A DNA stretch of 30,709 nucleotides from a virus: positions 1 through 30,709 of IMG/VR virus record IMGVR_UViG_3300047510_000758; one strand, written 5' to 3'. This document shows positions 2-28,181 of this stretch, in pieces. Every line of letters starts with the position of its first letter. Position 1 is the first letter of the stretch. The notes under the pieces were generated by a model. The model saw nothing but the letters and a program-made list of their open reading frames with translations. It was not told the DNA's origin and made no database searches. Position numbers and translations under genes: made by a program.

Positions 2-589
2 GATAGATTGTTTAATAGCGTTGATCAACCAATTGATTTATACACCAGCAACGAATCAATTGAACTACACGCAGAATATATTCGTGACGGGCTGGTATGG
101 AATGACTGGGTCAACACAATAGAAGTGGCACTTGATAATCAAATAAGTCATAAACTACGTGCTCTGCATATTATGTGTACCATCAACGCATTGTGTTTAG
201 ATAGTCTAGTACAATTTTTAGAATATGTGATTGATTGGAAAATGTGTTACGGGAGAGATGCTGTTAACTTTTCTTTAAACATTTTGCGTTTTCCAAGTTT
301 TCAATCTGCGTTGGTGTTGCCCGATAACCTACGTACCGCATATAAAGATCAATTGGTAGACTTTATGGATAGATACCGGAATAGTGAATTTATACAAGAG
401 TTTGAATGGAATCAATTACAAAGATTGGTCGATTATCTCGATGTGGTTAAAACACCTCACAGTGAAGCATTTGATTTAGACCGATTAAGAAACGACTTTA
501 AAAAATTCTACGCACAGTACGATCAACGACGTAATAAAAACTTTACAGAAACTTTCCCTAAATTAGCAAAATGGTATGATAGTCTATGA
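2..589 (+). CDS. Radical SAM protein, C-terminal part (5' end outside window)
   Basis: The frame is open to the left window edge, so this is the C-terminal ~195 residues of a longer protein; the TTG at position 8 is not a credible start. The stretch AEYIRDGLVWNDW near the beginning matches the corresponding part of the radical SAM protein at 3115-4410 (GEYIRTGLDYETW). The ending (FTETFPKLAKW) resembles the end of the protein at 586-1908 (FWATFPELL). It is therefore very probably a fourth member of the same radical SAM family, whose CxxxCxxC cluster and GGEP motif lie upstream of the window. Its stop overlaps the next start (ATGA). Assignment is by internal paralogy, not by seeing the catalytic core. 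Confidence 0.75.
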   Translation, partial: DRLFNSVDQPIDLYTSNESIELHAEYIRDGLVWNDWVNTIEVALDNQISHKLRALHIMCTINALCLDSLVQFLEYVIDWKMCYGRDAVNFSLNILRFPSFQSALVLPDNLRTAYKDQLVDFMDRYRNSEFIQEFEWNQLQRLVDYLDVVKTPHSEAFDLDRLRNDFKKFYAQYDQRRNKNFTETFPKLAKWYDSL

Positions 590-1908
590 GTGATGTGAAA
601 GGTTTTTATAACAAAGGATACGTGTATAACGAACGTGCGCCATATTTTATTGAGCAAGAAAAATTAACTCATGATCAATGGGTTAAATTAACAGAAAGCA
701 AAACATTTTGTATGATGCCCTGGATGCATATGCACGCCTTTCCAGATGGTCGTGCTTATCCTTGTTGTCTTGCTGATTATTGGCATCCAGTGGGAGACCT
801 GCGTAAAAATACAATGGAGGAAATATGGAATCAGCAACCATATCGTACTTTGCGTATCAACATGTTAAATGAACAACCAAGCAAGGAGTGTACCAAGTGC
901 TATGAACAAGAAACAAATGGTTTTTTTAGTATGCGTAACGATGCCAATCGTAATTATGGACATCACGTGCGTGAGGTGGATAGGACGGATAGCGACGGAA
1001 ATAATCCAGAGTTTAAGCTCAGATACTGGGATGTACGGTTTAGTAACCTATGCAACTTTAGGTGCCGTAGCTGCGGTCCTATTTTTAGCAGTAATTGGTT
1101 CAATGATCATGTTAAACTATATAATCGAACGCCTGACGTGCTCGGAAGGGAAATGGCTAGAGTAGAGTATACCACTGGTGATGAAGATGGTATGTTGGAA
1201 CAAATGTTACCTCACATACCATATCTTGAACAGGTGTACTTTGCCGGCGGCGAACCTCTTATCATGAAAGAACATTATTTCATGTTAGAAAAATTAATCG
1301 AACATGAAAAAACAGATGTACGTATTCAATATAACACAAATTTTAGCGAACTTGCCTACAAAGATAAACATGTATTTGATTATTGGCAGCATTTTAAAAA
1401 TGTCAGCGTTGGTGCCAGTTTAGACGCATCGGGTGCTCGAGCAGAACTATTGCGTAAAGGTACAGACTGGTCACAAGTAGAAAGCAATAGAGATCAAATG
1501 TTAAAAAAAGTACCTCACGTTGATTTTTATATAAGCGCAACTGTTAGTTCAATGAACGTATTACATGTGTTGGAGTTTCATCGAGAATGGGTCAAACAAG
1601 GATTAATTGACGCAAAAGATTTTAATGTAAATATATGTCAAAGTCCCGACTGGTACCGAGCAGACATCTTCCCACAAGATTTCAAAGAGAATTATATAAA
1701 ACCTGCATACCAAGAACACATTGCTTGGCTAGAACCACAAGATAAGTTACAACGGGCTACAAATGGTTTTAAAAGTGCATTGAACTTTATTATGGCTACA
1801 GATCGCAGCGATCAATTACAAAGATTCAAAGACGAAGTTGCAAAACTTGATTCTATACGAAACGAAGACTTTTGGGCAACTTTTCCTGAACTTCTATTAT
1901 TAAAATGA
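586..1908 (+). CDS. Radical SAM protein with N-terminal twitch/SPASM-like domain
   Basis: 440 aa. The radical SAM core carries the 4Fe-4S motif CxxxCxxC at C156, C160 and C163, and the SAM-binding GGEP at 221-224. Ahead of the core, residues 42-105 form a SPASM/twitch-like module (CMMPW, DGRAYPCC, then a GDL...EIW segment and CTKC) with Cys 42, 60, 61, 102 and 105. Such modules usually follow the core; here the order is inverted, as in the phage family annotated as twitch domain-containing radical SAM protein. Members cleave SAM reductively to make a 5'-deoxyadenosyl radical; the substrate is unknown. The start overlaps the upstream stop by ATGA and the end overlaps the next start the same way, so translation is coupled. 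Confidence 0.9.
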   Translation: MSDVKGFYNKGYVYNERAPYFIEQEKLTHDQWVKLTESKTFCMMPWMHMHAFPDGRAYPCCLADYWHPVGDLRKNTMEEIWNQQPYRTLRINMLNEQPSKECTKCYEQETNGFFSMRNDANRNYGHHVREVDRTDSDGNNPEFKLRYWDVRFSNLCNFRCRSCGPIFSSNWFNDHVKLYNRTPDVLGREMARVEYTTGDEDGMLEQMLPHIPYLEQVYFAGGEPLIMKEHYFMLEKLIEHEKTDVRIQYNTNFSELAYKDKHVFDYWQHFKNVSVGASLDASGARAELLRKGTDWSQVESNRDQMLKKVPHVDFYISATVSSMNVLHVLEFHREWVKQGLIDAKDFNVNICQSPDWYRADIFPQDFKENYIKPAYQEHIAWLEPQDKLQRATNGFKSALNFIMATDRSDQLQRFKDEVAKLDSIRNEDFWATFPELLLLK

Positions 1909-3122
1909 CTTTACCAAAAACAATTTGTATGTTGCCGTGGATCAGTATAGAAACCAGTCCCATTGGTACAGCTAGACCTTGTTGCCTGGCACGAGAAGAA
2001 ATTACTGACAGTAATGGTGTTAAGTACGATTTAAACAAAGATAGCTTAGAAACAATATATCATAGCAAATATATGCAAAATCTCCGACAACAATTTCGTC
2101 AAGGAGAAAAACCAACTACTTGTAAATTATGTTGGGACGAGGAAGCAGCAGGTAGGACTAGTAAACGTATACACAGTAGAATTAGGCTAAAAGAATTATA
2201 TAACAATATCGAATGGGAAAATAATGATCCAGATCAGCTTTGGTTTCTTGATTTAAAATTAGGCAACATTTGCAATTTGAAATGCCGCATTTGCGGATCT
2301 TGGTCTAGTAGTAAATGGGCAGCAGAAGAATTAGAATATGTGCCTAAAGGGTACGACAAAAAGCAGCATATTGCATACCAATGGTTAAAACAGGGTGCAT
2401 GGCCTCGTAACCCGGATACAAATTTTTGGGCAAACTTAAAAACTTTACTACCTAACATAAAGTATCTTGAATTTACAGGCGGAGAACCTTGGCTGATTGC
2501 AGAACATTTTGATTTATTAAAGTATGCAGTAGAAAAAGGTTATAGTAAAAACATTGATATTCATTATAACACAAATGCTACACAAATGCCCGGAGAGTTT
2601 GATGCAGCAATCTGGCGAGAATTTGGCCGAGTCGACATCGCATTTAGCGTAGACAATGTAGGTGCTAGATTTGAATACGAACGATATGGCGCCAATTGGC
2701 TACTAGCTAATAACATTATTGATTATGTGCATTACAGTCAGGCATCTATGCCAAACATTACTACACAACTTTGTTTTACTATAAATGTTCAAAATGTCTA
2801 TTACCTCGACGAATTATTAGCCTGGGCCGATACAAAAAAATTTGGTAGTGTATATTTTAATATGTTGCACAGCCCAGATCATATGAGTGTTCAACGAATG
2901 ACCCCGACTGCACAAGAATTAGTTTTAAACAAATTAAAAACAACTTTTTGGGTCACCGAAGATTATCATAATGAAATTAATAATGTGATAAGATTCATCG
3001 AATTAGGTACAGGTAGTGACGGAAAAGAGTTTTTAGAAAAAATGAAACGCACTGACGAATATCGTAAGCAAAATTTTAAACATACTCACAGTGAAATAGC
3101 GTTAGCAATGGGATATGAATAA
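1905..3122 (+). CDS. Radical SAM protein with N-terminal twitch/SPASM-like domain
   Basis: 405 aa, paralogue of its neighbours. N-terminal module: C8 (CMLPW), C26-C27 (ARPCC), C73 and C76 (CKLC). Core: CNLKCRIC with C123, C127 and C130, and TGGEP at 191-195. The sequence is clearly diverged from the flanking copies, so the paralogues are not recent duplicates and probably act on different substrates or at different steps. The ATGA overlap at 1905-1908 couples it to the previous gene; its end overlaps the next gene by 8 nt. It should bind one SAM-cleaving 4Fe-4S cluster and perhaps an auxiliary cluster in the N-terminal module. The substrate cannot be told from sequence. Confidence 0.9.
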   Translation: MTLPKTICMLPWISIETSPIGTARPCCLAREEITDSNGVKYDLNKDSLETIYHSKYMQNLRQQFRQGEKPTTCKLCWDEEAAGRTSKRIHSRIRLKELYNNIEWENNDPDQLWFLDLKLGNICNLKCRICGSWSSSKWAAEELEYVPKGYDKKQHIAYQWLKQGAWPRNPDTNFWANLKTLLPNIKYLEFTGGEPWLIAEHFDLLKYAVEKGYSKNIDIHYNTNATQMPGEFDAAIWREFGRVDIAFSVDNVGARFEYERYGANWLLANNIIDYVHYSQASMPNITTQLCFTINVQNVYYLDELLAWADTKKFGSVYFNMLHSPDHMSVQRMTPTAQELVLNKLKTTFWVTEDYHNEINNVIRFIELGTGSDGKEFLEKMKRTDEYRKQNFKHTHSEIALAMGYE

Positions 3123-4410
3123 ACATGAAACATTTTGTATGGCCCCTTGGACCCATACATATCTAAGCCCACAAACAGAAAGACGCCTATGTTGTGCCAG
3201 CAGAGAATCAGCACAAAATTTTCAACAATATATAGATAGCAATCAAGGCACGGGTCGTTATATCCCAATGGCTCTTGACGAGCACTGGAATAGTGCTCAT
3301 ATGCAATCAGTTCGTAAACGTATGATGTCCGGAGAAGTGCTACCCGAGTGCGAAGTTTGCAACGATAAACTATTAAACACTGATGTTTACCGTAGTTATT
3401 TTAATAATTTATTTGGGCATAAGTATCAACAAGTGCTAGAGAGCACTGACGAAACAGGATATACAACCATGAAACCTGTTTCGTGGGATTACAGATTTAG
3501 TAATCTCTGTAATTTTAAATGCCGTACGTGCGGCGACATGCTGTCTAGTTCGTGGGAAAGTGAGCAAAGACAACACTCAATGATTGATTGGTCAAATCCA
3601 AAAAACAATTGGATGCAACCTGAAATCAAAAAACAGATTGAACAGTTCCAGACAACTCAAATTGAAGCCGAGTTTGCAGCAGCAGTTGAGGGCCACCGTG
3701 TAGAAGAAGTTTACTGGGTGGGAGGGGAACCGCTAATGTATGAACAGCATTGGCGGTATATGCAAAGAATAATAGAACTGGGAGATGGTAAAAATGTTTA
3801 TGCTAGATACAATACTAATCTTAGCCGCATTAGTTATAGAGGTTGTAATCTTTTTCAAGATGTACTCGCTCACGTGCGCGATTGGCAAATTTGTGCCAGT
3901 ATTGACGGAACAGGACGAATTGGAGAATATATCCGAACAGGCCTTGATTATGAGACGTGGCTTGCAAACTTTAAGGAAGGAATTAGAGTCTCTACGCACG
4001 GAAGGCAAATGAGAATAGACTTCACGCTTACCCTTCCGGGTATGTTTGAAGTTGCAAATATACAGCAGTTAGGTAACGATTTGGGCGTTGACATCCTGGC
4101 AAAGGTTGTCTTTAGTTTTAGTCCGGACATAGTTATGTCACCTTTAGCCCTACCTAGGTCCGTATTAGATCCTTGGGTAGATGAATTATTAAACGCCGGA
4201 GTAGCCGGTCCGTTAAAGGATATCTTAGTTCAGCTTCGAACACGCCCTACCTTTCAAGAGCAATACGGTGAAACGGAATATCAAAAAGGTATTGCTCGAG
4301 GCAAAGCTCGTGTGTTACAATTAGAGGCTATTCGTACTCAGTCAACAACTATGGACGAAATACTATCAAAGAGAGCAGATGTATATGAGTGGTGGGCTTC
4401 CATCAGTTAA
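3115..4410 (+). CDS. Radical SAM protein with N-terminal twitch/SPASM-like domain
   Basis: 431 aa, last of the radical SAM series. N-terminal module: C8 (CMAPW), C26-C27 (RLCC), C79 and C82 (CEVC). Core: CNFKCRTC with C132, C136 and C139, and VGGEP at 202-206. It carries a longer insert between the cluster motif and GGEP than the 405-aa copy. The ATG at 3115 lies inside the end of the upstream gene (8-nt overlap) and gives the cysteine-containing N-terminus shared with the paralogues, which supports this start. The end overlaps the 363-aa gene by about 30 nt. Family membership is secure; the reaction is unknown. Confidence 0.9.
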   Translation: MNKHETFCMAPWTHTYLSPQTERRLCCASRESAQNFQQYIDSNQGTGRYIPMALDEHWNSAHMQSVRKRMMSGEVLPECEVCNDKLLNTDVYRSYFNNLFGHKYQQVLESTDETGYTTMKPVSWDYRFSNLCNFKCRTCGDMLSSSWESEQRQHSMIDWSNPKNNWMQPEIKKQIEQFQTTQIEAEFAAAVEGHRVEEVYWVGGEPLMYEQHWRYMQRIIELGDGKNVYARYNTNLSRISYRGCNLFQDVLAHVRDWQICASIDGTGRIGEYIRTGLDYETWLANFKEGIRVSTHGRQMRIDFTLTLPGMFEVANIQQLGNDLGVDILAKVVFSFSPDIVMSPLALPRSVLDPWVDELLNAGVAGPLKDILVQLRTRPTFQEQYGETEYQKGIARGKARVLQLEAIRTQSTTMDEILSKRADVYEWWASIS

Positions 4411-5470
4411 AGTAGTATTGCGTAATCCTTTAAATTATAATGATCAAATTGATTATAATATAATTCCTCACGACAACGAATTAGCTAAAGACTGGATTCC
4501 TGCATTAAAAGAATTATTACAATCAGGTAATTTATTAGAAAAGAATTTCTGTTTTATGGGTTTTCCAAAAACAGCAAGAAATATAGAATATCTATGTAAT
4601 CAACTTAACGAACATATTAGTACAATTAATAATTTTTTTGATGATTACTCAATTGAAGAAACGTTTAACCCCTCGTTTCTTGTGTTAACAGATCTTGGCC
4701 CAAATCATCAATATCTAAACAAACTACATAATCATTTTGAACGTCTACAAGGAACAGTTGAGAATTTAAGTGATTATTATCGGCGTGCTGATTATGAAAC
4801 AAAGTATGCTATCAGGCAATTAAACAATATTTGTCACGAATTAGAAAATCTAATACTAAGTCAGCGCAAGCTAAAGACATTACCGTTTTGGGTCAGACCG
4901 AGCCAAATAACAACATTTCTAAATGCACAACGCTATGATCTTAAAGACGAACATAGAAAGTTATTTGCAATTAATGGATTTGATCGTGTTCTTGGTGGTG
5001 TGTATATGCACTGGACACAAATAGGCAAAACACTCTTTGAAGTGTGGCGAGATGAAAAAGCACCTAAGTTAACCGCAACAGTTTGTGAAGCGATTACTCA
5101 TTTACAATATTATAGTGGAGAGTTTGATGTAGAATGGGGAAACAATGTTGTTTACGATGGTCCTCATCCTTGGCATACACACGAAATTGATCAATTTGCT
5201 ACTTGGTTACACGAAAATGGTATGCACGTCGAAGATCCTAGTTTAAGTTGTGGTTACTTACCACTTGGACAAGTTGATCTTGCTAGTAGTTTTGGCACAA
5301 CGACCGGAGAACCTATTTGGAATGTATTAAGTACACATTTAGACATTTTTAAAATTGAAGTAGACGGGGTTAGTAGTACATTTGATTATTCGTGGACAGA
5401 TGCTAATTATAAGCAAATTCAAATTGATATGATGAAACCAGGATATGATTTTAGTAGCCGGCGGCGATAG
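4379..5470 (+). CDS. Protein of unknown function in the radical SAM cassette
   Basis: 363 aa, not recognised. It starts within the end of the last radical SAM gene (ATG at 4379, or the in-frame ATG at 4385) and overlaps the following SGNH-like gene by 26 nt, so it belongs to the same translationally coupled unit. The protein is mostly soluble-looking and mixed alpha/beta. A histidine-rich segment HPWHTHEIDQF lies in the last third, preceded by a region rich in aromatic and polar residues (GGVYMHWTQIGKT). The clustered His and acidic residues could bind a metal, but this is only a guess. No signal peptide or membrane segment is seen. Its position suggests a partner or downstream enzyme of the radical SAM proteins. 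Confidence 0.8.
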   Translation: MYMSGGLPSVKVVLRNPLNYNDQIDYNIIPHDNELAKDWIPALKELLQSGNLLEKNFCFMGFPKTARNIEYLCNQLNEHISTINNFFDDYSIEETFNPSFLVLTDLGPNHQYLNKLHNHFERLQGTVENLSDYYRRADYETKYAIRQLNNICHELENLILSQRKLKTLPFWVRPSQITTFLNAQRYDLKDEHRKLFAINGFDRVLGGVYMHWTQIGKTLFEVWRDEKAPKLTATVCEAITHLQYYSGEFDVEWGNNVVYDGPHPWHTHEIDQFATWLHENGMHVEDPSLSCGYLPLGQVDLASSFGTTTGEPIWNVLSTHLDIFKIEVDGVSSTFDYSWTDANYKQIQIDMMKPGYDFSSRRR

Positions 5471-6269
5471 TTTTATTTTTGGTTCAGAATTGTCTGATCA
5501 GTCTGATCAGACACCAAGTGCTTTGACCTTTCCGTCTTTGCTAGCAGAAAAGTATAAAATTGAATATGATTGTGCAGCCTGGCCAGGCAATGCCAACAAT
5601 GCAATTAGTAGAATGACTATTGCAGAATGCGAGAAAAATAAAGGAAAAAATGTAATTGCATTGGTAACCTGGACATTTTTACAAAGATATGAATTTAGAT
5701 TCAATTATTCTACTAGGCAAAGGTTGAGTCCTTGGCTAAGTGTTAATTCTTGGACATCTGACAATTTTACAAAAAATGATTTTAAAAAAAACTTTTTTAA
5801 TAATAATGACGAAATATTAGAAGCGCATTTACAAAATTTAAAAACAGCACAACAAACTGGAACAGCAGAATTTGCCGTTGAGTTTTTTAAACACGTGGGA
5901 AATAGTGAATATTATGAATTATATCACAGTCTCAGAGAGTTTGTTTTTTTACAAAATTATTTTAAAGTAAACAATATACCTTATCTATTTGTTACTGCCG
6001 ATAATCATTTTTACAAACACCCGAATTTTAAAAGATCACAAGACACATATTTGAATAATTTATATGATCAAATTGATTGGAGCAAATGGTTTTTCTTTGA
6101 ACCAGGCACTAAAAGTAACGAAACAAAAGAACCTCGAGGTTTTTACCAGTGGGCAGTAGAAAATAAATACCCCATCGGAACCACGCATCCACTTGAAGAT
6201 GCACATTATGCGGCAGCAAAATTAATTAAGGACAAATTCAATGAATTGGTTACAAAATCTTTGGAATAG
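5445..6269 (+). CDS. SGNH/GDSL hydrolase-like protein
   Basis: 274 aa. The N-terminus has a GDSL-type block I, GGDSFIFGSEL, with candidate nucleophile S9. An AWPGNANNAISR segment supplies the glycine and asparagine of later blocks. Near the C-terminus THPLEDAHYAAAKLI carries the candidate catalytic His; the usual Asp three residues before the first His is not obvious. SGNH enzymes are esterases, lipases or O-acyltransferases acting on polysaccharides and small molecules. There is no signal peptide, so it is probably cytoplasmic in the infected cell. It overlaps the 363-aa gene by 26 nt and the 33-aa gene by 29 nt. It is one of five SGNH-like genes here. Confidence 0.75.
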   Translation: MILVAGGDSFIFGSELSDQSDQTPSALTFPSLLAEKYKIEYDCAAWPGNANNAISRMTIAECEKNKGKNVIALVTWTFLQRYEFRFNYSTRQRLSPWLSVNSWTSDNFTKNDFKKNFFNNNDEILEAHLQNLKTAQQTGTAEFAVEFFKHVGNSEYYELYHSLREFVFLQNYFKVNNIPYLFVTADNHFYKHPNFKRSQDTYLNNLYDQIDWSKWFFFEPGTKSNETKEPRGFYQWAVENKYPIGTTHPLEDAHYAAAKLIKDKFNELVTKSLE

Positions 6270-6342
6270 AATTCGGTTAGAAATTAGATATAGACGTAAA
6301 CTTCGAGAACTACGCAAAAGAGATCCGTTTATATACAAATGA
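6241..6342 (+). CDS. Small basic protein, 33 aa
   Basis: A short frame of 33 codons plus stop that starts (ATG 6241) inside the end of the first SGNH-like gene. Its TGA overlaps the ATG of the second SGNH-like gene (ATGA at 6339-6342). It fills the otherwise unexplained 70-base gap between those genes, which is the main argument that it is real. The peptide is very basic: it starts MNWLQNLWNRIRLE, has RYRRKLRELRKRD in the middle and ends DPFIYK, and would form an amphipathic helix. From memory, short basic proteins ending in a (R/K)DPFIYK-like motif recur in marine phages, but I could not check this. Function unknown; nucleic-acid or membrane binding is possible. Confidence 0.7.
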   Translation: MNWLQNLWNRIRLEIRYRRKLRELRKRDPFIYK

Positions 6343-6986
6343 AATTATTAACAGTTGGGTGTAGTTTCACCATTGGTGAAGAATTAGCTCATCCTGAATC
6401 AGATTCTTGGCCTGTGTTAATTAGTAGAATTAATTCATGGGAGTTAAACAATCTTGGAAAATCGGGCGGTAGTAATGATAGAAATATACGAATAATATTT
6501 GAAGAAATAGATAAAGGCTATGATTTAATTATTGTAGCATGGACAGTTCCTGATAGATTTGAAGTACCGTTGGACGGTAAGTTTATTGATATCAATGCCA
6601 ATTCTGGCAGAAAACTTAACATGCACTGGACTACCGAGTACTATACACACCACTACGACAGACTGTATTCTTATACAAAATGGTTAAGAAATGTTATACT
6701 TTTACAAAGTTACTTAAAAAATAAAAATCAAAAATATATTTTTGTTAGCACATTTGGTATGTGGAGTGATTTACAAATAGATGCATATCAAGAATATTCT
6801 GAGAAGCTTGATTATTTAATTAAGCAAGTTGATAAAAAATTTTACGTAGATTGGCCTCATTGGGGTATGACTGATTGGATGGGAGATTGTACCAAGGGTC
6901 CAGGAGGTCATCCACTTGAAGATGGACATAATAGAATAGCGGTTAGAATCAATGAACATATTAGGAATCTCGGCTGGATTTCATGA
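6339..6986 (+). CDS. SGNH/GDSL hydrolase-like protein
   Basis: 215 aa. Block I is VGCSFTIGEEL with candidate nucleophile S9. The GKSGGSNDRNIRI segment gives the glycine and asparagine positions, and GGHPLEDGHNRIAVRI near the C-terminus carries the candidate His. The HPLED(A/G)H ending is shared with the neighbouring 274-aa protein, so the two form a subgroup distinct from the DNxH-type SGNH proteins at 15100 and 28855. The start overlaps the stop of the 33-aa gene (ATGA), and the end overlaps the carbamoyltransferase start by 35 nt. A hydrolase or acyl-transferase role in the cassette is likely; the substrate is unknown. Confidence 0.75.
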   Translation: MKLLTVGCSFTIGEELAHPESDSWPVLISRINSWELNNLGKSGGSNDRNIRIIFEEIDKGYDLIIVAWTVPDRFEVPLDGKFIDINANSGRKLNMHWTTEYYTHHYDRLYSYTKWLRNVILLQSYLKNKNQKYIFVSTFGMWSDLQIDAYQEYSEKLDYLIKQVDKKFYVDWPHWGMTDWMGDCTKGPGGHPLEDGHNRIAVRINEHIRNLGWIS

Positions 6987-8439
6987 TGCTGCTGTTAGTG
7001 TAATTAACACGCACGGAGATATCTTATTTGCAGCCCATAGCGAACGATATAGCGGGGTAAAAAATGATGCTAACATCTGTCGCGACTTAATGGATGATGT
7101 AACGAATTATTTTCCTATTCATCACGTCGCATATTACGAAACTCCGTGGAAGAAACAATTACGCAGATTGTATAGCGGCGAGGGTATTGAGTGGAATAAG
7201 TTATCTACTCGGAAGATATTAACAGAACAATTTGGTGGATACGCACAAATACCAAGTTACAGTACACACAATCATCATTTAAGTCACGCAGCAGCAGGAT
7301 TCCAGACTAGTCTATATGATCGTGCAACAGTAGTAGTAATTGACGCAATTGGTGAATGGGACACTATTAGTATATGGGGTGCAGAATACGATAGACGTGG
7401 CCGCGCACAATATAAACGACTATGGGGACAACGATATCCTCATAGCGTAGGATTATTTTACAGTGCAATGACGCAGAAGGTAGGACTAAAGCCCAATGAA
7501 GATGAATACATTCTAATGGGTATGGCAGCATACAGTGACAACTTTTACGGTTATGACGAATACCTAAAAAGCAATCTAGTTAGTGATGAATGGAATATAA
7601 CCTTCAAAGAGAATTTGCATACCGGATGGCACAATAAGGTATGGAACACCGTACACGATGCCAATTTAGCTGTAGCAGCACAACTGGTAGTAGAAAATTT
7701 AATTTATAATGTAATGCGTAGAGCAAGAGATTTTAACTGGAGTACTAATCTTGTTTATATGGGCGGTGTTGCATTAAACTGCCTGGCTAATAGAAACCTA
7801 GGAGAATACTTTGATAACATTTGGATTATGCCGAACCCGGGCGATGCTGGTAGCAGTCTTGGCGCAGCAGCCCTTGCGTATGGCGGTCGCCTTCGTTGGG
7901 TGGATGCTTACCTTGGTTACAATATACCTGGACCATACCCAGTTAACGCCCTACTGGATGGTTTATTGTCTAATGGTATTGTTGGTGTTGCTAGCGGTCG
8001 TGCTGAATTTGGACCAAGAGCACTAGGTAATAGAAGTTTGTTGGCAGACCCTAGAGGAATCAATATAAAGGATCGTGTAAATGAAATTAAGCAGAGACAA
8101 AAATTCAGACCTTTCGCTCCTGTCATATTGGAGGAAATGGCTGATCAGTACTTTGACTTCCACCCTGGGTGGACTAATAGCCGTTATATGCAGTCAGTCG
8201 CTCGTTGTAGGCGTCCTGATCTGTTTCCTGCTATCTGCCATGTTGATGGGACCAGTAGAGTACAAACGGTACCAAAAGATGGTTCGGGAATCAGAGAACT
8301 GTTAGAGAAATGGTTTTTGATAACAGATTGTCCGATGTTGTTAAACACATCATTGAATATCAAAGGAGAACCGATGGTAAATGATCGTAAGGATGCCGAT
8401 AGATTTGAACAAAAATATAAAGTAAAAGTGTTATCATGA
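6952..8439 (+). CDS. Carbamoyltransferase, NodU/CmcH/TobZ family
   Basis: 495 aa with both halves of the family. The N-terminal ASKHA-like part begins ILGISAGFHDAAVSV. It has the metal-binding HHLSH motif (H108, H112), D131 and the nucleotide-binding GGVALN (about 271-276). The C-terminal YrdC-like part has GRAEFGPRALGNRSLLADPR (about 349-368) and LLNTSLNIKGEP (463-474). These enzymes use carbamoyl phosphate and ATP to carbamoylate a hydroxyl, usually on a sugar or antibiotic. Viral homologues have been linked to carbamoylation of hydroxymethylcytosine in DNA. It is shorter than many family members (about 550-600 aa), but all expected motifs are present. It is coupled to the SGNH gene upstream and overlaps the deaminase by ATGA. 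Confidence 0.9.
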   Translation: MNILGISAGFHDAAVSVINTHGDILFAAHSERYSGVKNDANICRDLMDDVTNYFPIHHVAYYETPWKKQLRRLYSGEGIEWNKLSTRKILTEQFGGYAQIPSYSTHNHHLSHAAAGFQTSLYDRATVVVIDAIGEWDTISIWGAEYDRRGRAQYKRLWGQRYPHSVGLFYSAMTQKVGLKPNEDEYILMGMAAYSDNFYGYDEYLKSNLVSDEWNITFKENLHTGWHNKVWNTVHDANLAVAAQLVVENLIYNVMRRARDFNWSTNLVYMGGVALNCLANRNLGEYFDNIWIMPNPGDAGSSLGAAALAYGGRLRWVDAYLGYNIPGPYPVNALLDGLLSNGIVGVASGRAEFGPRALGNRSLLADPRGINIKDRVNEIKQRQKFRPFAPVILEEMADQYFDFHPGWTNSRYMQSVARCRRPDLFPAICHVDGTSRVQTVPKDGSGIRELLEKWFLITDCPMLLNTSLNIKGEPMVNDRKDADRFEQKYKVKVLS

Positions 8440-8876
8440 AAGAAAAATTTAAACGTGCTTATATGAAAACTGCAAAAACATTTGCAGATCTTTCTCATGC
8501 TCGTAGATTAAAAGTGGGTGCAATTGTAGTCAAGGAAGATAGAATTATCTCCATTGGATATAATGGTATGCCCGCAGGCTGGGATAATAACTGCGAGGAT
8601 GAAACAAGATACGAAGATGGTGGAGTAACACTTACTACCAAACCAGAAGTTTTACACGCAGAATCAAATGCCATTGCTAAACTAGCAAAATCAAACGAAT
8701 CAGGAACAGGTGCAACATTGTTTATTACACATAGTCCGTGTTTGCATTGTGCTAAATTAATTTATCAGTCCGGAATAAAAAGAGTGTATTTTGGACAAAG
8801 CTATCGCGACAACACAGGAATTACTTTTTTGCAGAAATCCGGCGTAGAGATTGATCAATTGACGATTGAAGATTAA
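8436..8876 (+). CDS. Deoxycytidylate (dCMP) deaminase
   Basis: 146 aa, the usual length for phage dCMP deaminases. The zinc site is complete: HAES (H74 ligand, E76 proton shuttle) and SPCLHC (C102, C105). The N-terminal ARRLKVGAIVV and GYNGMP are typical of the family, the latter near the nucleotide-binding region. It converts dCMP to dUMP, the substrate of the thymidylate synthase at 16047-16964, and so supports dTMP supply for phage replication. It starts in an ATGA overlap with the carbamoyltransferase and is the last + strand gene of the left block. Its final 56 bases overlap the end of the convergent glycosyltransferase-like gene. Confidence 0.95.
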   Translation: MKEKFKRAYMKTAKTFADLSHARRLKVGAIVVKEDRIISIGYNGMPAGWDNNCEDETRYEDGGVTLTTKPEVLHAESNAIAKLAKSNESGTGATLFITHSPCLHCAKLIYQSGIKRVYFGQSYRDNTGITFLQKSGVEIDQLTIED

Positions 8877-10131
8877 CACTTAACTCATTCCATATATCAT
8901 TAACAAATTCTTTACTGTAAAATCTATTATAATTGTGTTCCAAAACTTCTTCCATTTCTAGTAAAAGATTTTGCAACTCTTGATTTGATAGTTTACATAT
9001 ATTTTCAATGATATCACAAATTTGATTTATTCTTTGAATAGGATCAGTTACTAAATCATAACTTTCGTCCCACCAGCGATCAAATGTTTTAAAACCGTAT
9101 TCTTTTAAATATGATAGATTGTTTGCACATCCAACTAATACAAAAGGTTGTTTTAATACGATAGGTTTAAATATTTTTTCTGTCAGATGTTGTTTAAAGT
9201 CCCAAAAACAAGTTTCGGTTACAACGTGTAAAAAACTTTCAATTGATTGATTGATTGGACCAATGGTAAAGCTATCATTTGAAATTGTTTCATTAAGAGG
9301 TGTATCTATTCTTAAATCATTTTGTAAATCTTTTGTAAGATACAACAAAACAGAATTGACGTAGTCGCTGGGTAAATCATATTTTTTCTTTGCTGTTAAT
9401 AAACTTTGTTTTAACTCACCATGAACTGGGCATTGTCTACTGTAACTTATGTGTCCTTGTGAAATAAGATCTCTTTTAATCAATTCTGCTACTAGAAAAG
9501 ATCTATGTACTCTTGCGTTTCCTGTTATTCTATTAAATGAAATAAATTTTTTATTGACTATTCTTTCTTTTAGTGGTAAAATGTCTGAACAATATTGATA
9601 TCCTCGATACCAATCGGCAGCGGCTAAACCGTGGAAAAAATAGTAGCAATCAATAAAGTTATATTTTTCTATTATTTTATTTTTTTCTTTACTATTTTTT
9701 TCAGTGTTAAGTAATACTAAAGGAGAATATTTTATATCTGGAATGTATTCGGGTAATCTAACTGAATTAAATATATGAATATCTGAATTATGTAATTTAC
9801 TTAAACCTGAATCTAACAAATCATCAGTGGACGAATTGTAATGATTTTGTGGAATAATAAAAGTTTTTTTAGTTATTAATTTCTGAATTTTAAAAAATAA
9901 TTCTTGATTATAATCATAAATTAATGGTTCTTGGTCGTAACACAAGAAAAAGATATTTTTTTTGTTTTGTATATTTTTATCGGGGGTATATGTGTTATCA
10001 ATACTAATAAATTCTACATTATCAATGTGGGTAGAACCAAAAGGAAATAGATATCCTAAGATTCCGTGATCGACACCACTTCGTTTAATTAAACTTAGAA
10101 TATTTTGATAATTGATATGAATATTATACAT
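8821..10131 (-). CDS. Glycosyltransferase-like protein (exostosin/GT10-like C-terminus)
   Basis: 436 aa. The C-terminal half contains FLHVVTETCFW (about 300-310) followed by HLTEKIFKPI (315-324) and FVLVGCANNLSYLKEYGF. This resembles the nucleotide-sugar-binding part of exostosin-like and GT10 fucosyltransferase proteins, where a TEK(I/L)F(K/D)P(I/L) segment is typical. The N-terminal half has Rossmann-like strands such as NIFFLCYDQEPLIYDY but no motif I can name. The gene is very AT-rich (one 60-base line near 9661 has only 8 G+C), more so than its neighbours, suggesting separate acquisition. The start codon is half of a CATG shared with the divergent gene at 10130. No clear Shine-Dalgarno is seen. 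Its 3' end overlaps the dCMP deaminase. Confidence 0.65.
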   Translation of the reverse strand: MYNIHINYQNILSLIKRSGVDHGILGYLFPFGSTHIDNVEFISIDNTYTPDKNIQNKKNIFFLCYDQEPLIYDYNQELFFKIQKLITKKTFIIPQNHYNSSTDDLLDSGLSKLHNSDIHIFNSVRLPEYIPDIKYSPLVLLNTEKNSKEKNKIIEKYNFIDCYYFFHGLAAADWYRGYQYCSDILPLKERIVNKKFISFNRITGNARVHRSFLVAELIKRDLISQGHISYSRQCPVHGELKQSLLTAKKKYDLPSDYVNSVLLYLTKDLQNDLRIDTPLNETISNDSFTIGPINQSIESFLHVVTETCFWDFKQHLTEKIFKPIVLKQPFVLVGCANNLSYLKEYGFKTFDRWWDESYDLVTDPIQRINQICDIIENICKLSNQELQNLLLEMEEVLEHNYNRFYSKEFVNDIWNELSVNLQSSIDQSLRRISAKK

Positions 10132-12022
10132 GATTGACGTTTTTTATTATGGGGGAATCCCAAATCAATTTATTTTTGAAAAAAGTGCAGTTAGCTTAGA
10201 AGATGCTGCCCAACAAAGTAGGACCAAGTTCTACTGGTATATTTATGGGGGTAATGATTACTCAAAATTTGATTTTGATTGGAGGCCGGCACCATGGGAG
10301 GAACATCAGATACATTGTTTTGGTACTCAGTGGCAGCGTACAGGTGGGGCATATCTAGCAAATCGTGACACGGTACAAAATAAAGAATGGCATTTTCGAA
10401 ATGAACAACAAGTGCCAAGATTAGAAGATCGATCCAATTGGATCGTTCCATCTAATGTAAACGATTCTGATTTTGATTATAGCTGGCATTCCGATGAACT
10501 AGAAGCAGATTACGAATATCATTTTCCTACGCATTGGCAACGTCAAGGTGGGCCGATATATAAAGGAACTGCAGGAATTAAATTTGTTGTTGACCAAAAG
10601 GTCAAGACAGGATCTACTCAAATTTTTTATATTGATTTTTTAAACGAACCCAGCGCCGCCCAATTTGAAACCTTAAAGAAAAGATATCCTGATATTAAGA
10701 ATACAAGATATGTCAATGACCATTTAACTGTTTTTAAAAGAATAATAAATCTAGCTACAACTGAATTTGTATGGATTGCAAGTAGTCTATGCGATTATAT
10801 GAATTTTGATTTTACCTGGCATCCGCCAACAGAACGACGAGAAATGATTCACGTTTTTCCTTCGATTATTAGAGAATTTGGTAGCACTAAACAAAAAAGA
10901 GGGGATACATTTTACATTCACGTTCCGTCTTTCAAACAACAGTTATATGAACTTGAATTACTTGATTGGTTCAAAGTTATTAACTATACCGATGATCAAA
11001 TTGTTCCTTGGTTTCCTTTACCGGTTATAGACTACGATCAGGATAGTTTAGTAAATGTAATTAAAAAACACAATTTCAATCACCCTTACAGTTTGTTTAA
11101 AAATTGTGACCAACTATTAAATTTAAGTCCACCTTGTTTATGGCATCCAAAAGATAGAGAAATTATATCTATAAATGGTACAAACAGTATTTCGTTAGTA
11201 CCAAGAGATTCAAAAAATTATATTGTAAATCAAGTTTATGATTATCCTTACATAGTTAAATTAAAAAAGAAAAATAATACTGGACAAGATATAATTTTTA
11301 TTAGTTACGACGAGCCACAAGCTGACCAAAATTGGCAGTTGCTCTACAAAAAGTTTCCCAAGGCATTGAGATTGCACGGGGTTCAAGGAATGCATAATGC
11401 ATTACTCGAGGCCGCTAAACTAAGTAGTACTCCTTGGTATTTTGCTGTATTTGCAAAAACACAGGTAGCAGATAACTTTAAATTTAATTTTGATCCTGAT
11501 TATTTTCAATTGCCTAAACACTATATTTTTCACGCTAGAAATTCATTGAATGATTTAGAATACGGCCATATGGGAATCGTGTTGTATAATTGCAATCTTG
11601 TCAAGAATCAAAAAGAATTTGGTATAGACTATACAATGAGTGCACCTCACACAGTAATACCGGAACTTAGTGCAATAGCAACATTTAATAGCAATCCATA
11701 TCATACCTGGAGAACTGCTTTTAGAGAATGTGCCAAGCTTTCGCAGTTTATTACAGAACAACAGAATGTTGAAAATGAATTTAGATTAGAAACGTGGCTT
11801 AATTATGCCAATGGTATATATTCTGAATGGTGTTTACGTGGAGCCAGAGATGGCTACAAATTCTATCAAGAAAATAAACTAACGCCGACCCTGTTAAAAC
11901 AAGCTTTTGACTGGGATTGGCTAAAAAAATATTTTGAATCAATATATGCCAATGTCAACAATCCTGATTTAAAAGTTCTTGAACGTCGTCAAGAATCTTG
12001 GCAACCTCCAACGCATTATTAA
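10130..12022 (+). CDS. Large repeat-containing protein, putative glycosyltransferase-like
   Basis: 630 aa. At least three copies of a module run through it: FDFDWRP...HCFGTQWQRTGG (about 47-75), FDYSWHS...HFPTHWQRQGG (about 116-143) and FDFTWHP...HVFP (about 227-246). A weaker fourth copy, FNFDPDYFQLPKHYIFHARN, lies later. Between the later modules are GT-A-like pieces, for example TVFKRIINLATTEFVWIASS and a HNALLEAAKLSSTPWYFAV segment. These resemble the NAA-x-LA-T-x-(Y/F)-hydrophobic-D pattern of family 2 glycosyltransferases, but the acidic DxD is not evident. I infer a sugar-transfer or glycan-binding role, with modest confidence. The ATG is shared back-to-back with the divergent gene (CATG). 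The 3' end overlaps the oxidoreductase gene by 68 nt. Confidence 0.6.
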   Translation: MIDVFYYGGIPNQFIFEKSAVSLEDAAQQSRTKFYWYIYGGNDYSKFDFDWRPAPWEEHQIHCFGTQWQRTGGAYLANRDTVQNKEWHFRNEQQVPRLEDRSNWIVPSNVNDSDFDYSWHSDELEADYEYHFPTHWQRQGGPIYKGTAGIKFVVDQKVKTGSTQIFYIDFLNEPSAAQFETLKKRYPDIKNTRYVNDHLTVFKRIINLATTEFVWIASSLCDYMNFDFTWHPPTERREMIHVFPSIIREFGSTKQKRGDTFYIHVPSFKQQLYELELLDWFKVINYTDDQIVPWFPLPVIDYDQDSLVNVIKKHNFNHPYSLFKNCDQLLNLSPPCLWHPKDREIISINGTNSISLVPRDSKNYIVNQVYDYPYIVKLKKKNNTGQDIIFISYDEPQADQNWQLLYKKFPKALRLHGVQGMHNALLEAAKLSSTPWYFAVFAKTQVADNFKFNFDPDYFQLPKHYIFHARNSLNDLEYGHMGIVLYNCNLVKNQKEFGIDYTMSAPHTVIPELSAIATFNSNPYHTWRTAFRECAKLSQFITEQQNVENEFRLETWLNYANGIYSEWCLRGARDGYKFYQENKLTPTLLKQAFDWDWLKKYFESIYANVNNPDLKVLERRQESWQPPTHY

Positions 12023-12845
12023 CATCTGTTATAGGTTGTTTTCTACTTGCCACGCACTCAACAAAGTGTGACAATTCTCTTTGCAACGGTGATGGATTCA
12101 ATATTGGAATATGTGTTTCACTTTCTATGAGTTCTGAAGTTCGTTTATTACTAACAGAACCAAAAAATAATTTAACATTATTTGCAGCATCATCCCAAAC
12201 AATATGTCCGTTGCTTCCAATAATGGTCAATTTACGAACACGCTCCGGCCAGTACCAGGATCCAACAACAGTAGCAGTAATTTCACCACTGCGAACATCG
12301 AAACTTACATAGTCGGGAACTACGTTATTTGTAAAGTTTTTCTTTGTAGCAGATACTACTTGTATGTTCGTGCATAATTCAAGCAAAATACTCACGTCGT
12401 GAGGCAATAAACTAAGCAAAGGAGTTGTTTTTGTTTGATAAATGCCCCAGTTTAAACGTTCACTGTGTATGTGCTTGATTTCGCCTATACGTGGCAATTG
12501 TAATTTAATATATTCTAGCGCCGGGTGGTAAACAAAGATATGTCCTACCATAATAATTTGCGACCTAGCATAATCAGAAATAATAGCAACCTCTTCTGCA
12601 GTTTCGGCCATGGGCTTTTCAATATAACAATCAAATCCACGCTCGAGTAATTCCTGTGCTGTTTTAAAATGATCCCATAGTGGGGTGGCAATAATTGCAG
12701 CACGTATGTCCGTGTCAATGTCATCTATGGTTTGACCGTTTTTGACATCAATTACTTGTATTTTACCAACATTTGAAATTTGATTCAATGACTCAACAAC
12801 TTTAGAGCCCCAGTACCCTGAACCAACAACAGCAAGATTAATCAT
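11955..12845 (-). CDS. Gfo/Idh/MocA-family oxidoreductase (WlbA/WbpB-like)
   Basis: 296 aa from the ATG at 12845, chosen because it overlaps the upstream stop as ATGA; a GTG two codons earlier (12851) is the alternative. The N-terminal Rossmann motif is GSGYWG (8-13). EKP (76-78) carries the family Lys, and H149 in LLPHDV is the likely catalytic His. Members oxidise or reduce sugar hydroxyls with NAD(P). Placed directly after a DegT aminotransferase, it resembles the WbpB/WbpE pairing, where the oxidoreductase makes a 3-keto nucleotide sugar that the aminotransferase aminates. It is the last gene of the central - strand operon and overlaps the convergent 630-aa gene. Confidence 0.85.
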   Translation of the reverse strand: MINLAVVGSGYWGSKVVESLNQISNVGKIQVIDVKNGQTIDDIDTDIRAAIIATPLWDHFKTAQELLERGFDCYIEKPMAETAEEVAIISDYARSQIIMVGHIFVYHPALEYIKLQLPRIGEIKHIHSERLNWGIYQTKTTPLLSLLPHDVSILLELCTNIQVVSATKKNFTNNVVPDYVSFDVRSGEITATVVGSWYWPERVRKLTIIGSNGHIVWDDAANNVKLFFGSVSNKRTSELIESETHIPILNPSPLQRELSHFVECVASRKQPITDVNNALEVAKILDDVQELLNQDC

Positions 12846-13921
12846 TTCCACGCCTTCACTAACTCAATTATTTTTGTTTGTTGCTCATAGCTGAGCGTAT
12901 GATAACAAGGTAGACTCACAATATTCCTACATATTTCTTCTGCCCGAGGACAATCACCTCTACCGTAAATTTGAAATATTTTTTGTTCAGTTAAACTTTT
13001 TATATAATGAACATTAACTGTGACTCCGTTGTCTTTCATATACGCAATAAAATTATCTCTATTGTGTATTTGAATAACATAAACATAGTAACTATGTTTT
13101 GCCCACGGAGCAGTTTTTGGTGTATCTACATAACCTTCTAATTCTGTATTATATCGCTCACAAATAACACGTTTTTTGTCTAACCAATTATTTAAATATG
13201 GAAGTTTAGCCTTAACAACCAAGGCTTGAATATTGTCAATTCTAGCATTAATGCCTTTGAGATCAAAATCCCATTTAACAATACGCCCGTGGTCTCTGTG
13301 CATACGGGCACGTTGAATCAAATCTTCTCGTCCGGTGATAGCACCAGCATCACCAATTGCACCTAGATTTTTGACAGGATTAAAACTATGACAAGTAAGA
13401 TCTACTAGACTTCCCACTTTACGTCCTTTATATTCACCGCCTATACTGTGTGCAGAATCAGATATTAGATATAAATTGTATTTGTTGGCAATAGCAATTA
13501 AACGATCAATATCGGGAGTCTGTCCATACATATCAACAAACAATATTGCTTTTGTTTTCTCTGTAATTGCAGATTCTATTTTGTCTATATCAATTTGATA
13601 ATACTGATCTATATCAACAAAGACTGGCACAGCACCTTGCCAGTATATAGCTTCGGCTGTACTAATAAAAGTATGCGGAGTAGTAATAACTTCGTCACCA
13701 GAATTGATATTGCAGGCCATAAGAGAACACATTAATGCAGTTGTGCCACTGCCGGTAGCACAAGCAGCAGGAGCATCTACATACAAAGCAAATGCTTGCT
13801 CAAATTCATCAACTAAAGGTCCTGTAATATAACTAGAAGTATCAAGTATTCTAGCAATAGCAGCATCAATATCTTGTTTTACTTCGATGTATTGTGCTTT
13901 TAAATCGGTAAACGGTATCAT
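12842..13921 (-). CDS. DegT/DnrJ/EryC1/StrS-family sugar aminotransferase
   Basis: 359 aa, normal length. PLP-binding features are complete: DSAHSIGG (155-162) and the Schiff-base lysine K184 in HSFNPVKNLGAIGDAGA. The N-terminus IPFTDLKAQY and the GSGTTAL segment (58-64) are also typical. The enzyme transfers an amino group, usually from glutamate, to a keto nucleotide-sugar. It sits between the SDR enzyme and the Gfo/Idh enzyme, with ATGA overlaps on both sides, so the three should be made together as a short amino-sugar pathway. Which carbon is aminated is not decidable here; the Gfo partner suggests C3. Confidence 0.92.
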   Translation of the reverse strand: MIPFTDLKAQYIEVKQDIDAAIARILDTSSYITGPLVDEFEQAFALYVDAPAACATGSGTTALMCSLMACNINSGDEVITTPHTFISTAEAIYWQGAVPVFVDIDQYYQIDIDKIESAITEKTKAILFVDMYGQTPDIDRLIAIANKYNLYLISDSAHSIGGEYKGRKVGSLVDLTCHSFNPVKNLGAIGDAGAITGREDLIQRARMHRDHGRIVKWDFDLKGINARIDNIQALVVKAKLPYLNNWLDKKRVICERYNTELEGYVDTPKTAPWAKHSYYVYVIQIHNRDNFIAYMKDNGVTVNVHYIKSLTEQKIFQIYGRGDCPRAEEICRNIVSLPCYHTLSYEQQTKIIELVKAWK

Positions 13922-14889
13922 AACTTATTTTTTTTCTGCCAGTAACTGGATTTTTGAAACCACTCATAATATCTACAAAATCCTTCTTCAACATTAACAG
14001 TAGGATTGTATCCGAAGTCTGCAACAGCACGATCAATACTCAATCGACCACGTTTAGGAAATGCTAAATCTCTATCTTGAATTTCTAATTGTCCGCGCCC
14101 GGCAATATTAATCGCCAGTTCTGCTGCATCTTTTAACGTCACTAGAGTTTGATCACTGCGAGTTATATTATAAATTTTATTAGCAGCCTGGGCACTCATA
14201 GCGGCTTGCACTATGCCCATTGCAGCATCTTCAACATAAGTAAAATCTAACACTTCTCCGGCACCTTTAACCTTCAATGTTTCACCACGCATTGCACTCA
14301 ACATAAACTTAGATACCACACGATCTTCTACATCATATTCACCATATACGGCACTGGGACGAATAATAACATATTCGAATCCATGTTGGCGAGCATAGTC
14401 TTCAACAAGTTTCTCGCCCATATATTTCATAATACCATATTGTCCAATTGGATTACATATAGCATTTTCGTTTACATCATTTTCAAAATCACCATAGACC
14501 ATACTAGAACTAATATAAACAAATCGTTTTACATGATGTGATGCAGCAGCTTCTAATAAGTTAATTAATCCTGTTGCCATTACTTCACTGGCTAACACAG
14601 GATTTTGACTAACAACTTTTTGTCTAGGGAAGCTGGCTAAATGAATAATTGTATTACAATTAAAAGTTCCAACACGCATTCTAATATCGTCGTGCCTAAT
14701 GTCTCCAACTAACGGGGTAGATCTAATTCGACTTAATCTTTCTTTAAATAGATAAGTTAATTCGTCTTGCGGTATAAACCCGTAATTAGTTCGATTATCA
14801 ACGCCAAAACATTCTACGCCTTGTTGTTCCAGGAAGCGAACAACATTGTGACCAATAAATCCAGCACCGCCAGTAATAAATGCTCTCAT
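13918..14889 (-). CDS. NAD-dependent nucleotide-sugar epimerase/dehydratase (extended SDR)
   Basis: 323 aa. The NAD-binding GGAGFIG is at 7-13, the catalytic serine region ISSSMVYG at 126-133, and YGIMK gives Y151 and K155. Substrate-side motifs IIRPSAVYG and DFTYVEDAA are as in UDP-glucose 4-epimerase and dTDP-glucose 4,6-dehydratase relatives. I cannot separate epimerase from dehydratase. ATGA overlaps on both sides place it in the sugar operon, before the aminotransferase. Nucleotide sugars would be taken from the host pool, since no nucleotidyltransferase is seen in the window. Confidence 0.9.
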   Translation of the reverse strand: MRAFITGGAGFIGHNVVRFLEQQGVECFGVDNRTNYGFIPQDELTYLFKERLSRIRSTPLVGDIRHDDIRMRVGTFNCNTIIHLASFPRQKVVSQNPVLASEVMATGLINLLEAAASHHVKRFVYISSSMVYGDFENDVNENAICNPIGQYGIMKYMGEKLVEDYARQHGFEYVIIRPSAVYGEYDVEDRVVSKFMLSAMRGETLKVKGAGEVLDFTYVEDAAMGIVQAAMSAQAANKIYNITRSDQTLVTLKDAAELAINIAGRGQLEIQDRDLAFPKRGRLSIDRAVADFGYNPTVNVEEGFCRYYEWFQKSSYWQKKNKL

Positions 14890-15113
14890 TTGTATTTTAA
14901 TGTATAATAAACTTCGTCTTCGGGATCCAATGATCCTCTAATAGTAACTCTGTAGCCTAGTGTTTGGAAGTCAGTATTTAACTCATAAGTCAATCCCCGA
15001 CCGTGTTTCATAACCCATTGCCCTTTTTCTGTTTTTTGCCATTCTAATATTGGCCCGGCAACATAGATGTCAGGATCTTCACAATCGCCTAAAGTAAATT
15101 TATGAAAAATCAT
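14886..15113 (-). CDS. Conserved phage protein, 75 aa
   Basis: 75 aa, no named domain. It begins MIFHKFTLGDCEDPDIYVAG and has a short aromatic segment WQKTEKGQWVMKH in the middle. From memory, small proteins with this kind of start occur in other marine T4-like phages, but no function is known to me. It overlaps the SDR gene by ATGA and the upstream SGNH-like gene by 14 nt. That chain makes it a genuine coding gene, not a chance frame. No membrane segment or signal peptide. Confidence 0.75.
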   Translation of the reverse strand: MIFHKFTLGDCEDPDIYVAGPILEWQKTEKGQWVMKHGRGLTYELNTDFQTLGYRVTIRGSLDPEDEVYYTLKYK

Positions 15114-16044
15114 AATTTTTTAATATTTGTTCAGCATACCATTGATGTGTTTTTGGTCCTGGATGATGATTGTCAGTTCCATAATCAAAAAAAACTCCGT
15201 TGTTTCCGTCATCAAGTAAAGTGCTTAATTGAATATAATTGTCTATGTTTTTTGTGTAATATATGTCATGACTGTCGACTAATATTCCTGCAATAAGTAG
15301 TTTACAATGAATTTTATTACAAAAATTTATTACCTGATTAATGTGCGATAAATTTTTGTAAGGAATAAAATTAGTAAAAAAGATTTCTTTTTGTAATTTT
15401 TTAATTGTTGCATCATCGTATTCACTGGGGGTTATGTGTCTTATTTGTGTATCATAATAATAAAATCTGTTAAAACTTGTTAACCCTAGAATAACAATGT
15501 CATTTTCTTTTATATCAGACAATAATATTTGTTCAACTGCCCATTCGTTCGATGCTCCGGGGGTAGTTAGAAAACTAACTGGAATGTTAAGTTTGTTACT
15601 AATTAATTGCCCGTATCGTTGATCATTGGTAACACCGTACCCATGAGAAACACTACACCCCGCGATCCAAAGCTGTTTGTTTTGAGTTTTTCTGCCTTCG
15701 GGTGTTGACACATTTATGTCTGCTGCAGGATCCAACATTTTTTCTAAACCATATATTGTTTTCTTGTTTCGAAAACAAAGTATTAAAAATTCAGTATGAT
15801 GTCTCATCATACTAATGTTATCTTTAGTATCAGACCACTGCAATGGCGGGCAATAAACTATAACATCTGCTTGTTCAAGATATTCTAAAAATGGTTTATA
15901 AGAATTAAAATCTCCTAAACTTATATGATAAGTGCCGTCTTTTAAAGTGCTACCAATGACGTTAATTAATGTCGAATTGGCGTCAGCTTTTGTTGCAGCA
16001 GTGCTTAAACTTCTATCAGTGTCACCCACAAACAAAGTGATCAT
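15100..16044 (-). CDS. Two-domain SGNH-like protein
   Basis: 314 aa. Residues 1-115 form an N-terminal Rossmann-like domain (ITLFVGDTDRS, then FLEYLEQADVIVYCPP). An SGNH domain follows: block I IAGCSVSHGYGV with S131, GASNEW with N166, and a C-terminal DNHHPGPKTHQWYAEQIL with the Asp-x-x-His pair D291/H294. The layout and motifs match the 310-aa protein at 28855-29787, a distant paralogue. SGNH enzymes hydrolyse or transfer acyl groups; no signal peptide is present. The gene begins 2 bases after the thymidylate synthase stop and overlaps the 75-aa gene, so it links nucleotide and sugar genes in one operon. Confidence 0.75.
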   Translation of the reverse strand: MITLFVGDTDRSLSTAATKADANSTLINVIGSTLKDGTYHISLGDFNSYKPFLEYLEQADVIVYCPPLQWSDTKDNISMMRHHTEFLILCFRNKKTIYGLEKMLDPAADINVSTPEGRKTQNKQLWIAGCSVSHGYGVTNDQRYGQLISNKLNIPVSFLTTPGASNEWAVEQILLSDIKENDIVILGLTSFNRFYYYDTQIRHITPSEYDDATIKKLQKEIFFTNFIPYKNLSHINQVINFCNKIHCKLLIAGILVDSHDIYYTKNIDNYIQLSTLLDDGNNGVFFDYGTDNHHPGPKTHQWYAEQILKNYDFS

Positions 16045-28152: not shown

Positions 28153-28181
28153 ATTATAACAACTTGGTCAAGTAAGGCAAA
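28153..28181 (-). promoter_or_regulatory. Possible sigma70-type promoter before the exonuclease gene
   Basis: On the - strand, a perfect TATAAT (28153-28158) follows a weak -35 (TTTGCC, 28176-28181) with a 17-base spacer. It overlaps the end of the SGNH gene upstream. The 17-base gap before the exonuclease ATG is the only break in the long - strand chain, which favours a promoter here. Confidence 0.45.

Follow-up and report, generated by a model that had tools for sequence, protein, structure and literature searches.

Radical S-adenosylmethionine (SAM) genes have already been described in aquatic T4-like phages. In pelagimyophages, radical SAM gene cassettes and glycosyltransferases lie inside the tail-fibre island, which forms a host recognition cluster (PMC7029224), and one T4-like genome contains 12 radical SAM genes (PMC5332604). 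These reports mention the genes without dissecting their order, partners or conservation. Here, a related cassette is analysed at positions 2-8876 of a 30,709-nt viral fragment (IMG/VR record IMGVR_UViG_3300047510_000758, positions 1 to 30,709), referred to below as the window. Its carriers are likewise aquatic T4-like phages with radical SAM genes in or near a tail-fibre island and glycosyltransferase genes in the earlier examples. The core comprises a tandem radical SAM array (rS0 to rS3 in the window), a protein of no assigned family (U363), a 33-aa basic protein (b33) and a carbamoyltransferase (CT). No description of this core or of the b33-carbamoyltransferase pair was found in the open-licence literature searched.

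The order rS0-rS1-rS2-rS3-U363-(SG1)-b33-(SG2)-CT, SG1 and SG2 being SGNH-like proteins, is kept at more than 100 viral loci, a number not to be read as independent events, since the sample includes some contigs twice and many that are related. A search with rS1 reports 29 viral loci at 68-80% identity. Both rS3 and U363 are present at all 80 b33 loci considered (the best 80 of at least 319), and CT adjoins b33 at all but two of these: one contig ends there, and none was found in the other (L110). SG1 and SG2 are missing from many cassette loci and are therefore accessory. The carriers are large T4-like phages from lakes and seas, with contigs of up to 374 kb and T4-type gp23 capsid genes in 10 of the 12 large-contig records. 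The original prediction, made from the window alone, had asked whether the same genes stand together in other phages; they recur, in order and with their motifs kept, and the four radical SAM genes, their chain of partners and their coordinates are as it claimed. It had also counted the two SGNH genes in the pathway; they are present in the window, but their place in the core is not supported.

The interval 2-4410 contains three radical SAM genes in full and the 3′ part of a fourth, on the + strand like the rest of the cassette. The rS1 (586-1908, 440 aa), rS2 (1905-3122, 405 aa) and rS3 (3115-4410, 431 aa) proteins score 392, 330 and 289 bits against the NCBIfam family NF033640 (N_Twi_rSAM), exceeding its curated whole-protein cut-off of 170 bits. 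The rS0 fragment (2-589), the C-terminal part of an N-terminal-twitch radical SAM protein whose 5′ end is outside the window, stays below it (97 bits, profile positions 233-398) because the gene is cut by the window edge. Pfam analysis places the SPASM domain ahead of Radical_SAM in rS1-rS3 (residues 42-106 and 151-299 in rS1, 24-row alignment; the SPASM of rS3 is below the Pfam cut-off). This inverted domain order, correctly recognized at the outset, is a known trait of NF033640 rather than a novelty: all four proteins match the family and share with it the twitch module N-terminal of the radical SAM core. However, the family is defined by sequence only, carries no named function, and its description does not include a tandem array of five to seven members accompanied by U363, b33 and CT. 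We know of no product assigned to enzymes of this type.

The CX3CX2C and GGEP motifs are present in rS1-rS3, the three genes in which they had been seen, and the rS0 orthologues keep both; full-length paralogues in other genomes, rS0 included, exhibit CX3CX2C in 309/309 and GGEP in 308/309 cases. Among the best-conserved cassette members is rS3, in which the N-terminal C8, C27, C79 and C82 as well as C132, C136 and C139 are invariant in a 68-row alignment. Foldseek analysis of its AlphaFold2 (AF2) model (predicted local distance difference test, pLDDT, 85.5) returns generic radical SAM neighbours alone, and a tblastn search of 50,697 phage records with rS2 and rS3 yields matches that are just 22-29% identical. 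The array extends upstream past the window edge. At the 22 loci with enough room, 5, 6 or 7 radical SAM genes precede b33 (10, 11 and 1 loci, respectively), mostly back to back with another gene occasionally inserted, so that the four tandem genes of the window, one of them partial, are not the full array. Orthologues at the same position are ~70-80% identical, compared with ~20-25% for paralogues, which suggests that each array position probably does its own job and fits the earlier proposal of successive or different radical steps.

Relatives were also observed in bacterial genome data, where N_Twi_rSAM matches of E 1e-45 or better were obtained for 3 of 398 Pseudomonadota genomes, including one phage-like contig. 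A Pseudomonadota genome contig (L257:4238-11149) carries four tandem N_Twi_rSAM genes near genes that by eye resemble rfbC/rfbD sugar genes, and this run possibly represents bacterial relatives of the array. On a phage-like contig of a Rickettsiales metagenome-assembled genome (MAG; contig 6, L259/L260), virion-type genes precede a stretch with 9 N_Twi_rSAM matches that exceed the family cut-off and several further radical SAM genes. Despite this cassette-like order, no match to U363, b33 or CT occurs within 40 kb.

The CT protein (6952-8439, 495 aa, phrog_1601) comprises a Kae1-like N-terminal and a YrdC-like C-terminal domain, and both Carbam_trans_N and Carbam_trans_C are matched, as expected of the carbamoyltransferase first assigned here. 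It aligns with the novobiocin carbamoyltransferase and GdmN, and shares with TobZ, NodU, GdmN and NovN both domains and the metal/ATP motifs HHxxH, GDAGSS and GRAEFGPRALG. It differs from them by its 33-aa partner and the radical SAM array. The solved relatives are O-carbamoyltransferases with small-molecule hydroxyl acceptors. In a tree, the b33-associated enzymes stand apart from the cyanophage Nol-like ones, while the enzyme of phage C48C1, which has no b33, joins the b33 group on a long branch. Each of the 11 cassette genomes possesses a single CT, always the neighbour of b33.

The b33 open reading frame (6241-6342), ending with the invariant RKRDPFIYK, is real and under strong purifying selection: over the last 11 codons of 91 distinct copies, third positions differ in 41.5% and second positions in 0.2%. 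A DNA pattern for KRDPFIYK identifies 120 stretches, in which the motif is nearly always the extreme C-terminus of a short basic protein. A carbamoyltransferase lies downstream on the same strand in 96 of the 120, within 100 bases or overlapping in 67 of these 96; 13 others lack room, and 11 have room yet no carbamoyltransferase match. At most non-cassette b33 loci there is no radical SAM gene nearby, and b33 is therefore not simply a radical SAM substrate. Thus b33 is a member of the cassette, as proposed, without being private to it, as it travels with carbamoyltransferases where no radical SAM genes are found nearby. Where the flanks were long enough (30 non-cassette loci), the gene immediately upstream is primase-type in 23 cases and the one immediately downstream encodes a DnaB-like helicase in 22. 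The arrangement primase, 37-40 aa KRDPFIYK protein, carbamoyltransferase and DnaB-like helicase is seen at L154:4908-8860, L160:9414-13456, L236:8817-12295 and ~20 similar loci, mostly chained by overlaps. At ~22 loci, only the Kae1-like N-terminal domain of the carbamoyltransferase remains (312-339 aa; e.g. L123:8494-9438 and L236:9880-10896) and b33 is kept, which indicates this domain, or a nearby protein, as the partner of b33. One contig contains tandem b33 genes (L047:5382-6099), the tail of the first being degenerate (RNKKPFIYW versus RKRDPFIYK). An empty tblastn search of the 50,697 phage records with b33 was not used as evidence because the low-complexity filter may mask a K/R-rich query.

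Regarding U363 (4379-5470), no family above cut-off was found in the profile libraries, and its viral matches are uncharacterised proteins throughout. Its AF2 model, built from a 69-row alignment, has a pLDDT of 91.6. Foldseek reports nothing significant in the PDB, and VIA-align superimposes the model on E. coli cyclophilin B (Z 9.3, 136 residues, root-mean-square deviation 3.6), its top 30 rows being cyclophilins or mitoribosomal/spliceosomal chains. U363 is thus perhaps a cyclophilin-like barrel with a helical insertion (residues ~62-171 of the model), and since a Z of ~9 is modest, the match suggests a fold and not a function. A tblastn search of the same phage records returned no match to U363, nor did a search of phages Atu_ph07, C48C1 and AG-345-D19, which was run without a positive control. 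A genome scan reports two MAG contigs, of which the one read is phage-like by its neighbouring genes.

The dispensable SG1 (5445-6269) has no family match above cut-off in the profile libraries, its SGNH-like label resting on an alignment and on residues seen by eye (GDSF, N and HP..H). The equally dispensable SG2 (6339-6986) matches DUF6071 just over the cut-off (28.5 bits against 27) and GDSL weakly (E 0.076). Up to five SGNH-like proteins are encoded in 30 kb (5445-6269, 6339-6986, 15100-16044, 28154-28858 and 28855-29787), mostly without a firm family match. The last gene of the interval, 8436-8876, was missing from the gene list of the original prediction; it encodes a dCMP deaminase (phrog_174, 1e-52) and is probably outside the core. 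All 9 cassette junctions overlap, by 4-35 bases each, compared with 10 of the 25 other same-strand junctions of the window (Fisher p = 0.0018). The chaining by start/stop overlaps is therefore genuine and enriched, but overlaps are common in this genome, and the strict coupling once taken to imply one pathway does not by itself prove it.

In all 11 large contigs examined for their upstream side, virion/tail-fibre type genes on the same strand are followed by small or unknown genes and then by the array. Homologues of a 331-aa gene are found upstream in 11/11, and relatives of a 774-aa gene, whose product has collagen repeats and matches the tail protein phrog_819 (7e-45), in 10/11. After the last fibre-type gene, nearly all gaps contain a hairpin; a TATAAT box lies near the next start in 5/11 (shuffle mean 1.0, five being reached in 1 of 2000 shuffles), and no T4 late TATAAATA was found in the 11 gaps between fibre genes and cassette. 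The cassette may therefore be transcribed as a unit of its own, perhaps early. On the downstream side, a DegT sugar aminotransferase occurs in 12/12 records, an epimerase in 7/12 and a thymidylate synthase in 8/12. In the window, a GFO/IDH/MocA dehydrogenase (best NCBIfam match UDP-GlcNAc 3-dehydrogenase), a DegT aminotransferase and an epimerase at 11955-14889 likely form an amino-sugar nucleotide gene set. Glycosyltransferase labels (GT10, p630) given by eye likeness to genes at 8821-12022 were dropped, as they have no Pfam or PDB support.

Taken together, these data lead us to propose tentatively, at somewhat less than even likelihood, that the cassette tailors and carbamoylates a decoration involved in host recognition. 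The radical SAM enzymes would act in succession on a sugar, or on an acceptor that carries one, while U363 would bind or serve as a scaffold. CT would then make carbamoyl-adenylate and pass the carbamoyl group to an acceptor hydroxyl, while the invariant tail of b33 would dock on its Kae1-like domain, an assignment suggested by the retention of b33 beside the enzymes made of the N-terminal domain alone. The finished group would most likely be displayed on the tail fibres and less likely on the host envelope. This proposal is based on the fixed order at more than 100 loci with one b33-adjacent CT per genome (11/11), on the fibre-type genes upstream (11/11) and the DegT (12/12) and epimerase (7/12) genes downstream, on the small-molecule hydroxyl acceptors of the solved CT relatives, and on the report of radical SAM cassettes together with glycosyltransferases in the pelagimyophage tail-fibre island (PMC7029224). 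The broadly similar layout of the distant L259/L260 contig, with N_Twi_rSAM genes and without the rest of the core, is a further reason. Several points weigh against it: both the decoration target and the substrate are putative, the glycosyltransferase-like neighbours lack significant matches in Pfam or the PDB, 11/11 does not amount to 11 independent events since the contigs are related to one another, the b33-CT pair of other phages lies between primase and helicase, away from fibres, and the cassette may not belong to the late fibre operon.

The apparent transcription unit of its own after the hairpin, with TATAAT in 5/11 gaps (1 in 2000 shuffles) and no T4 late TATAAATA, would also suit a cassette that alters the host cell surface during infection, an O-chain or other glycan, for example to block superinfection, and leaves the virion as it is. 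Such a role was proposed for the glycosyltransferases of the same island (PMC7029224), and sugar-nucleotide genes lie downstream of the cassette. However, neither a set of host envelope genes nor a transporter or flippase was seen in the core, and adjacency to fibre genes suits the virion equally; we regard this explanation as unlikely, if a serious contender. A phage-associated 5-hydroxymethylcytosine (5hmC) carbamoyltransferase of 63 kDa, paired with a hydroxymethylase-type thymidylate synthase homologue, has been described (PMC8670742), and the radical SAM enzymes might similarly alter a nucleotide that CT carbamoylates, yielding a hypermodified nucleobase. The flanking of the b33-CT pair by primase and DnaB helicase genes in many relatives is consistent with this, as are the dCMP deaminase, thymidylate synthase and dihydrofolate reductase within 11 kb in the window. 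By contrast with the described enzyme, CT (495 aa) is accompanied by a thymidylate synthase of dUMP type, and dCMP deaminase is near CT in just 2/12 records. A dCMP hydroxymethylase has Asp where the dUMP-type thymidylate synthase has Asn. The synthases of 7 cassette records, window included, carry Asn and none Asp; no dCMP hydroxymethylase was found, with an eighth synthase unread, no PF00303 match in 4/12 records, and records that may be incomplete. These residues disfavour the hydroxymethylcytosine route but do not bear on a TET-type route that oxidises 5-methylcytosine. Given the known 5hmC-carbamoylating enzyme, the DNA explanation is kept at a lower weight, as a distinctly unlikely one.

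It is also improbable that the cassette makes and carbamoylates a small diffusible metabolite or nucleotide analogue during infection, viperin-like or antibiotic-like. The rS proteins weakly match viperin, MoaA and BlsE in sequence and fold, and TobZ, GdmN and NovN carbamoylate antibiotics, but radical SAM enzymes in general show such fold matches, and the core contains neither exporter nor activating synthetase. Lastly, b33 could be the precursor of a ribosomally synthesised and post-translationally modified peptide (RiPP) on which the radical SAM enzymes act. It is a 33-aa product with an invariant C-terminus beside twitch radical SAM enzymes, whose nearest folds include the RiPP maturases SuiB, SkfB and CteB, and in one contig b33 is duplicated in tandem, with one of the copies degenerate. 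Yet b33 has no Cys, its K33 is dispensable, and dozens of phages retain the KRDPFIYK tail where no radical SAM genes lie close by, as at most non-cassette loci; the tie between precursor and maturase fails, and this explanation is highly improbable.

For b33, an analogy with HypF-HypE, in which the carbamoyl group is passed to the C-terminal PRIC cysteine of HypE (PMC12130793), may be considered as a speculative and quite doubtful extension of the decoration proposal. The b33 peptide would accept or guide the carbamoyl group, its invariant C-terminus entering the Kae1-like site, in a two-part transfer machine of a new kind that the array would use to finish a decoration not yet described. The two systems share the idea alone of an invariant C-terminal tail paired with a carbamoyltransferase: the HypE acceptor is a Cys, whereas b33 is a 33-aa protein devoid of Cys. 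As the near-invariant partner of a whole phage carbamoyltransferase clade, b33 offers a simple experimental handle. A set of five to seven radical SAM enzymes, none redundant with another, kept in constant order beside a single carbamoyltransferase implies a viral radical pathway of many steps, and if its target is a tail fibre or a surface glycan, these phages would alter host recognition by radical chemistry.

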